From Minisyncoccota bacterium (GTDB lineage: Bacteria; Patescibacteriota; Minisyncoccia; Moranbacterales; GCA-2747515), in NCBI GenBank assembly GCA_937936355.1, contig CALDDM010000003.1, forward strand, positions 1-48,536: a DNA stretch of 48,536 nucleotides, given 5' to 3'. Positions 15,840 to 23,227 of the stretch are shown here, in pieces (the stretch's first letter is position 1; every line of letters starts with the position of its first letter). Both the position numbers and the translations under genes were made by a program. Below the pieces are notes generated by a model. It was not told the origin of the DNA and made no database searches. It saw only the letters and a list, made by a program, of their open reading frames with translations.

Positions 15840-18308
15840 GTGCGCAAATATAAAAACTTTTTACAATGGTATTACGGTAAGGGTATTCGTGATTACGGCA
15901 CTGCAGTGCGTAATGTCATGTCTTTTTTGCCACGGTTTTTTTCTTTTGGGTTACTTGGTCGTACGCTTTTTGCTCCATGGCATCGTGATATCTCGTTGCG
16001 ATCTTGGGCAGGTGTTCAGCCGCTGAAATCTCTCCAGCGCTTAATTTGGAATCTTTTCTCGCGTTTTGTTGGTCTCTTTATACGTCTTGGTACGCTTGCG
16101 CTTGGTGCCGTGTGCTTGTGTGCGTTTCTGATTTTTGCCGTGATACTCTTTGTCGTATATTTTGCATGGCCAGGTGTTGCGATCGTGAGTATGGTTTTCT
16201 TTTTTGCAGGGCACTGGATCATCGGTGGTGTTTTGGCGGTGATGCTGGGTGTATGTGGTGGTTGGGCATATCTCAATTACCGACAATTTTTTCACCGGCC
16301 GTATGCGAAGATGGATATTTTGATGCTTGCACAGCAACCGTGGTTTCATCGTGTGTGGGAACGCTTCGGTATCGCGGCAGACGATGTTGCGCCTGAGGTG
16401 CTGTCTTCTCTGGATGCGTTTGAGTCTTTTTTGCGCACACATGAAATGTCTCTGGAGGAGGCGCAGGACGTAATTGCTTGGGAGATGGAATATCAGCGCT
16501 CGCGGGAAGAAGTGGCTCGACCATTTAGCCAGAAAGCGCTTGATCGTATACATTCTCTTGGACGCTGGTGGCATTACGGCTACACACCCACACTTAATCG
16601 TTTCTCACATGACCTTTCTCGTAATGACTATTCGTCCTATGGCCGCGAAAAACTTCATGGGCATCAAAGGGAAATGTCTGCAATTGAATCAGCATTACAA
16701 AAGCCGGGAGAAAATAATGTTTTACTTGTCGGTGAGCCAGGTGTCGGTCGGACATTTCTTGTGCACTTGCTTGCGCAGCGTGTGCGTAACGGTATCTATC
16801 GTGGCACGGTCTTGGGGGAGCAGCGTATTCTGGAGGCTGATCTATCGCAAGCGATTGCCAAAGCGAAGGATCGGGGTCGTGATCCTGAATTTGTGGCACA
16901 AGGTTATCTTCATGAGGCTGCGCATGCAGGTAACGTTACTCTTTTTCTCAAAAATTTTGAACAATACTTTGATCGACACACTTCTCATAGCAGAGACTTT
17001 TCCTATGCTGCAATGCTTGATGAGTATGCGCCACTCCCACACTTTCGGATGATTGCGACGACATCGGAAGAGGCTTTTCAATCTGTTCTTCGAGTACATG
17101 ATGGTATGCTTGCTCATTTTTCTGTGATCCACGTTGACGAGATGAATGAGGAGCATGCGATACAGACACTCTTTACGCATTTTTATGATCGGTCACGTAC
17201 GGTTTTTACGTACCAGGCTTTGCGAGAGATTGTGCGTGACAGTGCTCGTTATACCAATACCGGACCGTTGCCGTCGCGTGCACTCGCACTTGCCGAGGAA
17301 GTTAAGACGTATTGGCGTGGTGCTGGTGGTGCCGGCTGGGTTACTCCGGATGTTGTTTTGTCATATATTACACACAAGACTGGTATTCCACTTGGTCATG
17401 TAACTGGCAAGGAAGAGCAGCAAAAGCTCCTCACCCTCGAAGAGAATCTTGCGCAACGAGTCATAGCGCAGCCGGAAGCAGCGCGAGCTCTTGCTGAGGC
17501 GCTACGGAGAATGCGTAGCGGGATTGCTCGTCCGCATCGTCCTGCGGGCAGCTTTCTTTTCCTTGGTCCTACAGGTGTGGGGAAGACGGAGATGGCGAAA
17601 ACTGTTGCAGCTGAGTATTTTGGTGGTGAGGATAAGGTGGCTCGTATTGATATGTCCGAATATCAAGGCAGTGGCGCACTTACGAAACTTCTTGGCTCAC
17701 GCTCTACGGGTGAGAAGGGTTCGTTGAGTGAGATCGTTGCAACGCAGCCTTATAGTGTTTTGTTGCTTGATGAAATTGAAAAGGCAGATGCTTCTGTGCT
17801 TGATATTTTCTTGCAGATTCTTGATGAGGGCTTTGCACATAATGGTTTTGGTCGCAAACTTCACTTTACCTCTATGGTAATTATTGCAACGTCTAATGCT
17901 GGATCTCGCGCGATTGCGCATATGGTAGCGCAGGGTGACGTGAAAAACTTACAGGAACAAGTCCTTGCGCGCGTGGTGGAGTCCGGTATATACCGACAAG
18001 AGTTTCTCAACAGGTTTGATGATGTCGTCGTCTTTACGCCGCTTGATGTTCAAGCTATGCAAAAAGTGACAAAGCTCATGCTTGCAAAATTTGCTGCGCG
18101 TATTGCGCAAGAGCAAAATGTCGTCCTTACGTTTGCAGATGATGTCTCAGCGAAGATCGTAGAGAAGGGTTACGAGCCCAAAAACGGCGCTCGGTCGATC
18201 TTGCGATATATCGATAAGACCCTTGCAGATGTTCTTGCAAAGAAGCTTATCTCTGGCAATGTTTTGCGTGGTGATGCGGTGCACTTCAGTGCATCGGATC
18301 TATTGTAG
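15840..18308 (+). CDS. Membrane-anchored Clp/Hsp100-type AAA+ ATPase
   Basis: N-terminal TM helices; D1 P-loop GEPGVGRT; D2 GPTGVGKTEMAKT and VLLLDEIEKAD; RQEFLNRFDDVVVF. Confidence 0.9.
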   Translation: MRKYKNFLQWYYGKGIRDYGTAVRNVMSFLPRFFSFGLLGRTLFAPWHRDISLRSWAGVQPLKSLQRLIWNLFSRFVGLFIRLGTLALGAVCLCAFLIFAVILFVVYFAWPGVAIVSMVFFFAGHWIIGGVLAVMLGVCGGWAYLNYRQFFHRPYAKMDILMLAQQPWFHRVWERFGIAADDVAPEVLSSLDAFESFLRTHEMSLEEAQDVIAWEMEYQRSREEVARPFSQKALDRIHSLGRWWHYGYTPTLNRFSHDLSRNDYSSYGREKLHGHQREMSAIESALQKPGENNVLLVGEPGVGRTFLVHLLAQRVRNGIYRGTVLGEQRILEADLSQAIAKAKDRGRDPEFVAQGYLHEAAHAGNVTLFLKNFEQYFDRHTSHSRDFSYAAMLDEYAPLPHFRMIATTSEEAFQSVLRVHDGMLAHFSVIHVDEMNEEHAIQTLFTHFYDRSRTVFTYQALREIVRDSARYTNTGPLPSRALALAEEVKTYWRGAGGAGWVTPDVVLSYITHKTGIPLGHVTGKEEQQKLLTLEENLAQRVIAQPEAARALAEALRRMRSGIARPHRPAGSFLFLGPTGVGKTEMAKTVAAEYFGGEDKVARIDMSEYQGSGALTKLLGSRSTGEKGSLSEIVATQPYSVLLLDEIEKADASVLDIFLQILDEGFAHNGFGRKLHFTSMVIIATSNAGSRAIAHMVAQGDVKNLQEQVLARVVESGIYRQEFLNRFDDVVVFTPLDVQAMQKVTKLMLAKFAARIAQEQNVVLTFADDVSAKIVEKGYEPKNGARSILRYIDKTLADVLAKKLISGNVLRGDAVHFSASDLL

Positions 18309-18847: not shown

Positions 18848-18874
18848 TTAGCACTCTACTTGACAGAGTGCTAA
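18848..18874. promoter_or_regulatory. CIRCE operator (HrcA-binding inverted repeat)
   Basis: TTAGCACTC-N9-GAGTGCTAA, exact match to the consensus, directly upstream of hrcA. Confidence 0.97.
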
Positions 18875-18926: not shown

Positions 18927-19679
18927 ATGAAACTTAATGAACGACAATTAAAGATTCTTGCAGCAGTTGTGCAAGAGTATACACAGACTGGCTTACCAGT
19001 AGGTTCTAGCGTACTGACGAAAAAATATAATTTCGATGTTTCATCCGCAACGCTTCGTGCTGATATGGTGAGTTTGGAGAAGGAAAATATGCTCCATCAA
19101 CCACATACATCAGCGGGTCGGATGCCAACGGATGCTGGATACAAGTACTTTGTAGAAAACATCATGGCAGAAAGGGAGCTCTCCAAAGAGCAGCAAGTTG
19201 CGCTTCAGAAAGAGCTTTTGCAGCTGCGCGCACAAAATGTGCGTTTGATGCGTACGACTGCTAAGCTCATTTCAACTGTAAGTGGCTATGCTGCAGTGAT
19301 CGTTAATGCAAAGACGGGGGAGACATCAGAATTTGGTCTGACAAACTTACTGAAAGATGTTGATAAAGAGAATATAGATGACCTCTGTAAAGTGGCTGAG
19401 ACCTTGGACTACATCGATGAGCAATGTGACGATCTGATGAAAGATTTAAATGATGGTCAGACGCATATTTACATCGGTCAAGATAATCCAATTACGCAGA
19501 CCAAGAATTATTCAATGGTTGTGAGTAAGTATGAATCTGGAGGAGACGAGGGGATTGTTGCGCTGATTGGTCCCAAAAACATGAAATATGATAAAAATAA
19601 GTCTCTTATTGATTATGTGAAGAAGCTCCTGGGTGGAGCTGGTAAAGTTGGTGTCTTTGTAACTGTCGTAGGGATTTAG
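18927..19679 (+). CDS. hrcA: Heat-inducible transcription repressor HrcA (short form)
   Basis: LNERQLKILAAVVQEYTQTGLPVGSSVL...SSATLRADMVSLEKENMLHQPHTSAGRMPTDAGYKYFV, preceded by CIRCE. Confidence 0.93.
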   Translation: MKLNERQLKILAAVVQEYTQTGLPVGSSVLTKKYNFDVSSATLRADMVSLEKENMLHQPHTSAGRMPTDAGYKYFVENIMAERELSKEQQVALQKELLQLRAQNVRLMRTTAKLISTVSGYAAVIVNAKTGETSEFGLTNLLKDVDKENIDDLCKVAETLDYIDEQCDDLMKDLNDGQTHIYIGQDNPITQTKNYSMVVSKYESGGDEGIVALIGPKNMKYDKNKSLIDYVKKLLGGAGKVGVFVTVVGI

Positions 19680-19722: not shown

Positions 19723-20661
19723 ATGGCAGAAAAAAAGAAAAAAATGGACGATGGTATTGTTAAAAATTGTAAACGAGATGTTTTTGCAGTGACACAGAAA
19801 GCTGTGGTTTACGATCCTGTTGGTAAAAAATTTCTTATTGTAAAGGATTCGCCAATTGATGGTGGAGATGCAATTGAGGTTCTTGGAGATTGGCAGTTTG
19901 CAGGTGGGCATATTGATTATGCTGATGAAAGTGTGGCAGAGGCTATCAAAAGAGAGATTGTTGAAGAGCTTGGAGATAATTTTGAATTTGATTTGGGAGG
20001 AGTATTTCACACAGCGAGGGCTGACTATGGTAAGAATAGGCGCATTATGAATAGTTGGCTTGTGACCTATGTTGAAGGTGATATATCGCTTAGTGACGAG
20101 CAGTTAGAATATAAGTGGGTAACTAGTGAGGAGATACAAAATAGTGATGTTTATTTTGAGTGGCTGAAGGACATTGTCTTATCTGCTGATCAATATATTG
20201 AGCGATCAGAATCCCATGAGAAGATGTTGCGGACGCTCGCGGAGTTTGATAACTACAAGAAGCGATCGTCTGAACAGCAAAAAGACTTTGCAAAATACGC
20301 AAGCGAAAAAGTGATTATGGAAATGCTTCCTGTTTTGGATAACTTCCATGCCGCGACAGGCTTTGTGCCAGAGGATCAAAAAGATTCACCATGGCTGACA
20401 GGTATCATGTATATCCAGCAACAGATGGAAAAAGTCTTCGAAGACGCAGGTGTGCGACCAATCGAAGTGGCTGTGGGCGATGCATTTGATGCCCAGAAGA
20501 TGGAGGCTATCAAGGCAGAGAATCCTCAGGGATCTGATGATGCTTCTGGCGAGGTTGAAAATGAGCAACAAGAGGAGCAACAGAAAGTTTCGAAGGTAGT
20601 ACAAAAGGGTTATATGATCGCTGATCGCGTGATGCGTGTGGCGCGTGTCGAGCTAGGCTAG
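19723..20661 (+). CDS. grpE: Nudix hydrolase domain fused to GrpE nucleotide-exchange factor
   Basis: N-terminal GGHIDYADESVAEAIKREIVEELGD Nudix-box-like segment; C-terminal LRTLAEFDNYKKRSSEQQKDF...MLPVLDNFHAA...KVVQKGYMIADRVMRVARVELG GrpE signature; no intervening stop. Confidence 0.88.
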   Translation: MAEKKKKMDDGIVKNCKRDVFAVTQKAVVYDPVGKKFLIVKDSPIDGGDAIEVLGDWQFAGGHIDYADESVAEAIKREIVEELGDNFEFDLGGVFHTARADYGKNRRIMNSWLVTYVEGDISLSDEQLEYKWVTSEEIQNSDVYFEWLKDIVLSADQYIERSESHEKMLRTLAEFDNYKKRSSEQQKDFAKYASEKVIMEMLPVLDNFHAATGFVPEDQKDSPWLTGIMYIQQQMEKVFEDAGVRPIEVAVGDAFDAQKMEAIKAENPQGSDDASGEVENEQQEEQQKVSKVVQKGYMIADRVMRVARVELG

Positions 20662-20749: not shown

Positions 20750-21178
20750 ATGAGACCTATGAGTCAAAACATCGTACGGTGGAATCCGCTCCACGAAGTC
20801 GATCGTTTCTTTGACGATGACTTTATGGGAGTGATGCATTCTACTCTTGCGCCTGCGATTGATGTTTATCAAGATAAAGATAATGTCATTGTAGAAGCGC
20901 AGATGCCTGGTATTGATCCTGAAAAGGTTGATATAGACATCGAAAATGACGTCCTTACTATTTCTGCGGATGTGCAGAGTAATCAGGAAGTTCAAAAAGA
21001 AAATTTCTATCGCAAAGAAATTCGCAGTGGTTCGTTTGCGCGACGTATCATCTTGCCGATGAGTGTCAAAGCTGACAAAGCTTCTGCGGACTATGAAAAA
21101 GGCATGCTGACAATCACACTTCCAAAGATTGAGGAAGTAAAACCAAAAAAGGTTGCAGTGCGCGTCAAAGGAAAGTAG
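20750..21178 (+). CDS. Hsp20 / small heat-shock protein
   Basis: PAIDVYQDKDNVIVEAQMPGIDPEKVDIDIENDVLTISA...GSFARRIILP alpha-crystallin domain. Confidence 0.93.
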   Translation: MRPMSQNIVRWNPLHEVDRFFDDDFMGVMHSTLAPAIDVYQDKDNVIVEAQMPGIDPEKVDIDIENDVLTISADVQSNQEVQKENFYRKEIRSGSFARRIILPMSVKADKASADYEKGMLTITLPKIEEVKPKKVAVRVKGK

Positions 21179-21283: not shown

Positions 21284-23227
21284 ATGAGTAAAATTCTCGG
21301 TATCGATCTCGGTACAACAAACAGTGCGATGGCAGTCATCGAAGGTGGCAAGCCGGAAATCCTCGAAAACAAAGAGGGTAATCGTACAACGCCATCTATG
21401 GTGGCGGTCAATAAATCTGGTGAGCGACTTGTTGGACTTCTTGCGAAGCGTCAAGCAATGACGAATCCAGAGAATACTCTCTTTAGTGTAAAGCGTTTTA
21501 TCGGACGGCAGTTTGATGATAAGGAGGTGCAAGAAGACATCAAGCTTTCGCCATACAAGGTGGTCAAGGGAGATGGTGGTAGTATCAAGGTTACAATGGG
21601 TGACAAAGACTACACGCCACAAGAGGTTGCTGCGATGATCCTCGGTAAAATGAAAGCTGATGCAGAAGAAAAGATCGGAAGTAAGATCGAAGAAGCTGTG
21701 ATTACTGTGCCTGCGTACTTTGATGATTCACAACGCAAAGCAACCAAAGAGGCTGGTGAGATCGCAGGGCTGAAAGTTCGTCGTGTGATCAATGAACCAA
21801 CTGCTGCTGCACTTGCATATGGTTTTAACACGAACAAGGATGAAAAGATTGCTGTCTACGACCTTGGTGGTGGAACATTTGATGTTTCAATCCTTGAGGT
21901 AAGTGATGACACAATCGAGGTAAAGGCAACTAATGGTGACACACACCTTGGTGGTGATGATTTTGATCAGGCGATTATCGCGCACATCTTGGAAGAGTTC
22001 AAGAAGCAAGAGGGTGTTGATCTTTCAAAGGACAACAGTGCTTTGCAGCGTGTGAAGGAATCAGCGGAGAAGGCAAAGATTGAGCTTTCTACTGCAGATC
22101 AGACAGAGATTAATCAGCCATTTATCACGCAAGGTGATGCTGGTCCTGTGCATCTCGTGATGACAATCACACGATCAAAGATGGAAGAAATTATCCACGA
22201 CCTGGTAAAGAAGACACTTGGTCCAGTAGAGGCTGCTCTCAAAGATGCTGGTATCGCCAAGGGAGATATCAATGAGGTTGTCCTTGTTGGTGGTATGACA
22301 CGTATGCCAGTGATCCAAAAGACTGTGGAAGAATTCTTTGGCAAGAAGCCAAATGTTACTGTGAACCCAGATGAGGTGGTTGCGCTTGGTGCAGCTGTGC
22401 AAGGTGGTGTGTTCCAGGGTGACGTGAAAGACGTACTCCTGCTTGATGTGACACCACTGACACTTGGTATCGAGACAATGGGTGGTGTACGGACACCGCT
22501 GATCGACAAGAACACGACAATCCCTGCAAATAAGTCACAAGTGTTTTCTACTGCTGCAGACAATCAGCCCTCAGTAGATATTCATGTGTGTCAGGGAGAG
22601 CGTGAGATGGCTGCGGATAACAAGTCACTGGGACGCTTTATCCTTGATGGTATCCCACCAGCACCACGTGGCGTGCCGCAGATCGAAGTGCATTTTGACA
22701 TCGATGCGAATGGTATCTTGAGCGTCAAAGCGATTGACAAGGGTACTGGCAAAGAGCAAAGCATCAAGATCGAAGGTACATCTGGTCTGAGTGAAGAGGA
22801 GATCGAACGCATGAAAAAAGATGCAGAAGCACATGCAGAGGAGGACAAGAAGAAAAAAGAAGAGGTTGAAGTTCGCAACACTGCAGAAACAATGATCTTT
22901 ACAACCAAGAAGGCAATGGAAGAGGCTGGTGATAAAGTCTCAGATGATGAGAAGAAGCCTGTTGAGGAAAAGATGAAAGAGCTTGAAGAAATCCTGAAGG
23001 ATGACAAAGCTGACATCGAAAAGATCAAGGAGGCTTCTGAGGCGCTGAGCAAAGAAGCACAAAAAATTGGCGAGAAACTCTACGCTGCAAACGCGGCTGA
23101 CGCGGAAGCGAAAGCTGATGGTGACTCAGACAAGGCTGATGGCGATGCCAAAGAAGCAGAAGTCGAGGATGACAAAGCTGACGCAAAGTCTGACGACAAA
23201 ACTGAAGACAAGAAAGAGGATAAGTAA
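21284..23227 (+). CDS. dnaK: Molecular chaperone DnaK
   Basis: [19 protein letters not shown]...[15 protein letters not shown]...[11 protein letters not shown]. Confidence 0.98.

Follow-up and report, generated by a model that had tools for sequence, protein, structure and literature searches.

A Nudix domain in place of the N-terminal tail of GrpE in a patescibacterial heat-shock operon

What is a nucleotide-hydrolase fold doing at the front of a DnaK co-chaperone? The question is raised by one open reading frame in the stretch of DNA analysed here (the window, 48,536 nucleotides from a Minisyncoccota bacterium), for which an earlier reading of the letters – the original prediction – had proposed a fusion of a Nudix-like domain to GrpE in a single 312-residue protein, lying within a heat-shock locus between hrcA and hsp20–dnaK. 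Gene coordinates and domain searches bear out both the fusion and its position, and the features that matter for the discussion are as follows.

18848–18874, + strand: CIRCE operator, TTAGCACTC-N9-GAGTGCTAA, zero mismatches; putative HrcA binding site of the operon
18927–19679, + strand: hrcA, heat-shock repressor (TIGR00331, above cut-off)
19723–20661, + strand: Nudix-GrpE fusion protein, 312 residues (open reading frame and Pfam)
19786–20142, + strand: Nudix fold, residues 22–140 (PF00293 at residues 27–139, AlphaFold model, Foldseek)
19903–19974, + strand: Nudix box, residues 61–84, GGHIDYADESVAEAIKREIVEELG, with one additional residue before the first Glu
20158–20361, + strand: predicted single continuous helix, residues 146–213 (AlphaFold, pLDDT about 90–98 over the span)
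20200–20652, + strand: GrpE domain, residues 160–310 (PF01025, alignments)
20750–21178, + strand: hsp20, small heat-shock protein (domain search)
21284–23227, + strand: dnaK (Hsp70), the partner of GrpE (domain search)

The gene order is hrcA, Nudix-grpE, hsp20, dnaK and the CIRCE element ahead of it is conserved in relatives, and on these grounds we infer that the fusion belongs to a classical HrcA-controlled heat-shock operon. The operator is the sole match within the window, where 0.01 would be expected by chance; it contains a TTGACA-like −35 element and, as is the rule for the HrcA/CIRCE regulon, lies upstream of an operon that includes hrcA itself, a position kept in nearly all related loci. 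The locus thus shares its gene order and its perfect CIRCE with the class I operon hrcA–grpE–dnaK, from which it differs in that its grpE carries a fused module and hsp20 sits between grpE and dnaK. In some genomes of family f10 (loci L156, L159 and L158) a second CIRCE is found about 0.4–0.7 kb downstream of the fused grpE, which suggests a separate operator for dnaK in these genomes. The window also encodes a ClpB/ClpC-like double AAA ATPase (15840–18308, + strand) immediately ahead of the hrcA operon; its N-terminal region is strongly hydrophobic and apparently membrane-anchored.

The frame of the fusion opens with ATG and is free of stops and frameshifts, and both Pfam domains score above their curated cut-offs: NUDIX with an E-value of 3.8e-11 (43.6 bits against a gathering threshold of 21.1) and GrpE with one of 7.9e-34 (117.2 bits against 25.8). 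Similarity to unfused GrpE restarts at about residue 163–165 (around position 20209), close to residue 165, where GrpE had been thought to begin. The higher AT content ascribed to the Nudix half is likewise real, its GC fraction being 0.382, compared with 0.468 in the GrpE half, 0.418 in hrcA and 0.423 over the window. This protein is the only GrpE found in its genome, which is about 90% complete and gives a single match to the family. Its residue G227, which takes the position of E. coli G122 by the 1dkg alignment coordinates, is invariant across 52 fusion proteins; loss of G122 in E. coli GrpE abolishes DnaK binding (PMC12915176).

The window's genome is a fragmentary draft of 37 contigs, and one might accordingly suspect an assembly chimera or an annotation artefact. 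Such an origin is extremely improbable: the frame is uninterrupted, and the same architecture and junction recur in 56 genomes and in other families. The original prediction had named a chimeric assembly, a missed frameshift between the domains and the lack of the same fusion in close relatives as what would undo it, and none of the three survives these observations.

How widespread, then, is the fusion? A GrpE search over 131 genomes of the order gave a match in 120; all long GrpE reading frames were retrieved and their N-termini read, the unfused ones being judged partly by open-frame length alone. The 114 intact GrpEs of the order comprise 56 Nudix-GrpE fusions, three nucleotidyltransferase-GrpE fusions and 55 unfused proteins, and full-length matches to the fusion are present in most sister genera. 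Every GrpE is Nudix-fused in the window's own family f1 (13/13), in f9 (8/8) and in f11 (8/8); in f7 there are 14 Nudix fusions and one nucleotidyltransferase fusion among 29, and the Nudix fusion is found in four of nine proteins in f4, eight of 25 in f10 and one of 18 in f6. Because half of the order does without it, the fusion is not essential. Outside the order, 384 genomes drawn evenly from the class contained fusions only in family f52, and 380 drawn from the phylum added two more, in f154 and f172. A limited check beyond the phylum, covering 300 genomes from one other phylum and 64 from another, yielded no full-length fusion at E 1e-40; its single match was L285, a 241-residue frame covering profile positions 91–293. 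The labels carried by the related loci are Candidatus Moraniibacteriota, Paceibacterota and Parcubacteria.

As to how the two domains meet, an AlphaFold model built from 52 natural sequences (mean pLDDT 88.8) predicts that the helix of residues 146–213 runs unbroken from the C-terminus of the Nudix domain through the GrpE stalk. With phmmer, residues 161–245 align to residues 55–140 of E. coli GrpE (1dkg), which puts residue 146 near E. coli residue 40 and residues 169–181 near 63–75; in the E. coli protein, L63–R75 is the contact with the DnaK substrate domain, and a disordered N-tail of 33 residues precedes the coiled coil (PMC12915176). Given the continuous helix and this residue mapping, the part replaced is, according to the model, the disordered N-terminal tail, with both the length of the stalk and its DnaK-contacting segment retained – and not, as originally proposed, most of the coiled-coil arm. 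In other respects the protein resembles known GrpEs (PF01025; E. coli 1dkg, G. kaustophilus 4ani, M. tuberculosis 8gb3): stalk, four-helix and β-wing regions are common to both, as are the G122-equivalent glycine, the DnaK-contacting stalk segment and a dnaK in the same operon, and Foldseek matches the remainder of the fusion to a GrpE–DnaK model. It differs from them in that the place of the disordered tail is taken by a folded Nudix domain, from which the stalk helix runs on without a break.

In E. coli, the tail motif 17IIM19 binds the substrate-binding domain of DnaK, competing for the substrate site (PMC12915176). Unfused relatives have tails of roughly 25–80 mostly charged residues, and the fused proteins have a short leader followed directly by the Nudix domain, so any pseudo-substrate function of the tail would have gone with it. 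A strong IIM-like motif was expected in the unfused tails, yet the pattern occurs in only seven of 25 unfused relatives, as well as in one of 58 fused proteins, where it lies inside a Nudix strand. Judged by these counts, an IIM-like tail looks like a variable rather than a strictly defining feature of GrpE, and because so few unfused relatives carry the motif, it may be that the tail, before its loss, was never a strong pseudo-substrate.

A comparison of relatives suggests that what occupies this position has changed repeatedly. In a tree of fused and standalone Nudix domains from the same genomes, the fused ones are divided among at least four distinct groups (types A, B, C and D; the f52 proteins were typed separately, outside this tree). 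On the GrpE tree – which has few columns, so that the counts are approximate – the module types lie scattered: at least 26 changes are required when every state is distinguished, and at least 14 when only fused and unfused are. Close relatives share 82–89% identity in hrcA, 71–81% in GrpE and, where seen, 95–96% in DnaK, and between these flanks they carry Nudix domains of different clades that are 25–33% identical, or none. Thus, two genomes of one genus (G064 and G065) are 86% identical in hrcA, 81% in GrpE and 96% in DnaK, compared with 26% in their modules (types A and B); another such pair (G005 and G011) shows 82% in hrcA, 74% in GrpE and 25% in the module (C and A); and a third (G080, fused, and G090, unfused) shows 89% in hrcA and 77% in GrpE. 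The junction is identical, identity resuming at L-(D/E)-(S/G)-W-K-R-C-x-A-D-F, which corresponds to residues 165–175 of the window protein. Between G107 and G105 the module has a dN of 0.44 and a dS of 1.98 (a rough value, being near saturation), against 0.08 and 0.80 for hrcA and 0.04 and 0.75 for dnaK, and the rise in dS, which goes beyond what relaxed selection alone would give, suggests that a more distantly related copy has taken over the position.

Simple fast drift of one ancestral Nudix was considered and rejected, given the distinct clades, the low dN/dS between closest relatives and the elevated dS. Pure exchange would predict a cleanly bimodal distribution of identities, but same-type modules instead vary continuously, from about 31 to 97%, and because of this continuity fast evolution or drift may contribute to module divergence beside exchange. 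On balance, the module appears to have been exchanged in place, with the junction fixed immediately ahead of the stalk segment that touches DnaK – a recurrent N-terminal exchange, where the original prediction had seen a hint of domain insertion.

The position is not reserved for a single Nudix domain. In three proteins from three families of the order (L022, L123 and L143), a nucleotidyltransferase-fold domain stands in its place before GrpE, joined to it by one helix (residues 142–220) in a model whose GrpE part has low confidence. This alternative module is similar in fold to ANT(2'')-Ia, the MenT1 toxin and CCA-adding enzymes, and it is found only fused to GrpE, the 131 genomes of the order containing no standalone homologue. 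Another genome (G068) encodes a tandem Nudix-Nudix-GrpE of 445 residues (L152, 153–1487, − strand), whose two Nudix domains come from different clades (B and C).

Other Nudix arrangements were seen in passing. The window's own genome contains a leucyl-tRNA synthetase in a 953-residue frame with an inserted Nudix domain (L237, at G000:C8:35000-41000), the box of which is intact (WLPGGTVEDGESLEQALEREVVEETG) and which lies apparently within the editing region; Nudix matches in similar frames of 950–990 residues occur in G099, G121, G098 and G112, and a literature search found no paper on a Nudix domain in leucyl-tRNA synthetase. Two genomes (G067 and G080) give about 20 Nudix matches each in roughly 1 Mb, against seven for the genome of the window; a count of about 20 is unusually high where genomes are reduced.

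One rival idea is that the Nudix domain is a regulator, in which binding or hydrolysis of a nucleotide signal would alter the action of GrpE on DnaK (its exchange rate or substrate release), so that metabolite state tunes the chaperone; the original prediction had raised such a coupling of nucleotide metabolism to DnaK exchange as a possibility. In the model, the rigid helical connection leads straight into the stalk segment that touches DnaK; in E. coli GrpE it is the stalk that senses temperature and contacts the substrate domain (PMC12915176); and all the modules seen so far, Nudix and nucleotidyltransferase alike, are nucleotide-acting folds. However, very different clades have been exchanged while GrpE hardly changes, which fits finely tuned allostery poorly, and a tandem of Nudix domains is tolerated; we regard a regulatory role as possible, if rather unlikely.

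GrpE first came to light as a host factor of phage lambda, and this history gives some colour to the view that module variety is itself selected through conflict, for example with phages that need the host's DnaK and GrpE. Rapid exchange between conserved flanks and the resemblance of the nucleotidyltransferase module to ANT and the MenT1 toxin would both fit. Set against them are the Nudix boxes, which resemble those of housekeeping hydrolases, and a lack of positive selection between close relatives, which together make conflict a very unlikely driver.

Whether the Nudix domain is likely to be catalytic can be judged from its box. In the window protein, this departs from the strict GX5EX7REUXEEXGU: there is an extra residue between the Gly and the first Glu (GX6E), just as the original prediction had noted, and the final G is followed by D where a hydrophobic residue is expected. 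The core REIVEE (R77, E78, E81 and E82) is kept. By hand count, the strict canonical box is present in 42 of the 56 fused proteins of the order and R-E-x-x-E-E is exact in 53, with a Glu-to-Asp change in two. Extensions of one or two residues between Gly and R-E recur in the window's family (L003, L004, L006, L007, L008, L010 and L012). One member of that family, L005 (in G003), has lost the catalytic residues and reads SKIEKS instead, so catalysis cannot be required everywhere. Between closest relatives, the dN/dS of the Nudix part is 0.06–0.14, below that of GrpE in most pairs, which indicates purifying selection. Most fused Nudix domains are thus probably active enzymes, a view that we hold less surely for the window protein itself.

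The off-consensus box of the window protein and the lost box of L005 might instead favour a Nudix domain whose part is mainly structural, capping the tip of the stalk or acting as a spacer there and contributing stability, solubility or dimer clamping, with any enzyme activity incidental; after all, any small domain with a terminal helix could plug onto the stalk. We consider this improbable in light of the retention of R-E-x-x-E-E and the strict box across the order and of the low Nudix dN/dS, and since the swaps bring in other intact Nudix domains, not arbitrary ones.

What the enzyme would act on is a more tentative matter. Foldseek likens the Nudix part to MutT, RppH and NudI-like enzymes (E = 1.5e-10 for a MutT-type Nudix), but its best structural matches are only about 17–25% identical, so a substrate cannot be read from them; a family-model search for a substrate listed mostly GrpE, with weak and mixed Nudix matches (NAD diphosphatase, MutT and NudI). 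With hydrolases of the MutT, RppH, NudI and Ap4A-hydrolase kind (PF00293; 3grn, 3ees, 6dt3, 3i7u) the domain shares its fold, box and core residues, and it differs from them in its fusion to a co-chaperone and its one extra box residue. Possible substrates include damaged nucleotides and dinucleotide alarmones, among which Ap4A is an attractive candidate because it reportedly cross-links to DnaK and increases upon heat shock (PMC10148737). In a more specific version, the tethered Nudix domain would work right at DnaK, clearing Ap4A-type alarmones or some other nucleotide that binds the chaperone; GrpE would then have two tasks, exchanging ADP for ATP and disposing of an inhibitory dinucleotide. 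The Nudix-bearing leucyl-tRNA synthetase bears on this version, as it belongs to the class of enzymes that make such alarmones. The proposal is decidedly a long shot; if true, it would link alarmone level to chaperone restart.

The reading that we favour, with a probability of roughly 60%, is that of a bifunctional protein induced by heat shock: a functional exchange factor to which a swappable Nudix hydrolase is tethered. The cell's only GrpE would act as nucleotide-exchange factor for the neighbouring DnaK; a folded Nudix hydrolase, in place of the disordered tail, would be held rigidly at the stalk tip by the continuous helix; and the HrcA/CIRCE operon would produce this bifunctional protein on heat or protein-folding stress. 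Nucleotide hydrolysis – most likely house-cleaning or alarmone-clearing – would thereby be co-produced with DnaK and tethered beside it, presumably to some benefit. The Nudix domain would be a plug-in that is gained and that gives way to Nudix domains of other subfamilies or, now and then, to a nucleotidyltransferase, always at one fixed junction.

Both domains are well known. The unusual points are that a central co-chaperone appears to have exchanged a catalytic module repeatedly and that it has lost a tail to which a role in substrate release is ascribed. Neither Nudix domains nor fusions are mentioned in a 2025 review of GrpE-like factors (PMC12987570), and no report of a GrpE-Nudix fusion was found in the mainly open-access literature searched; such proteins are probably present in sequence databases without having drawn comment.

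Textbooks present GrpE as a co-chaperone with a single purpose; here, one of its ends behaves as a docking port for nucleotide-acting enzymes. This port coincides with the position of the N-terminal tail, and it was not until 2026 that the tail's long-disputed part in substrate release gained direct support (PMC12915176). Nature here supplies close relatives among GrpEs, some with the tail and some without, that differ by a single module and so allow the role of the tail to be tested directly, and the family offers a clear further example of in-place domain exchange in the reduced genomes of Patescibacteria.
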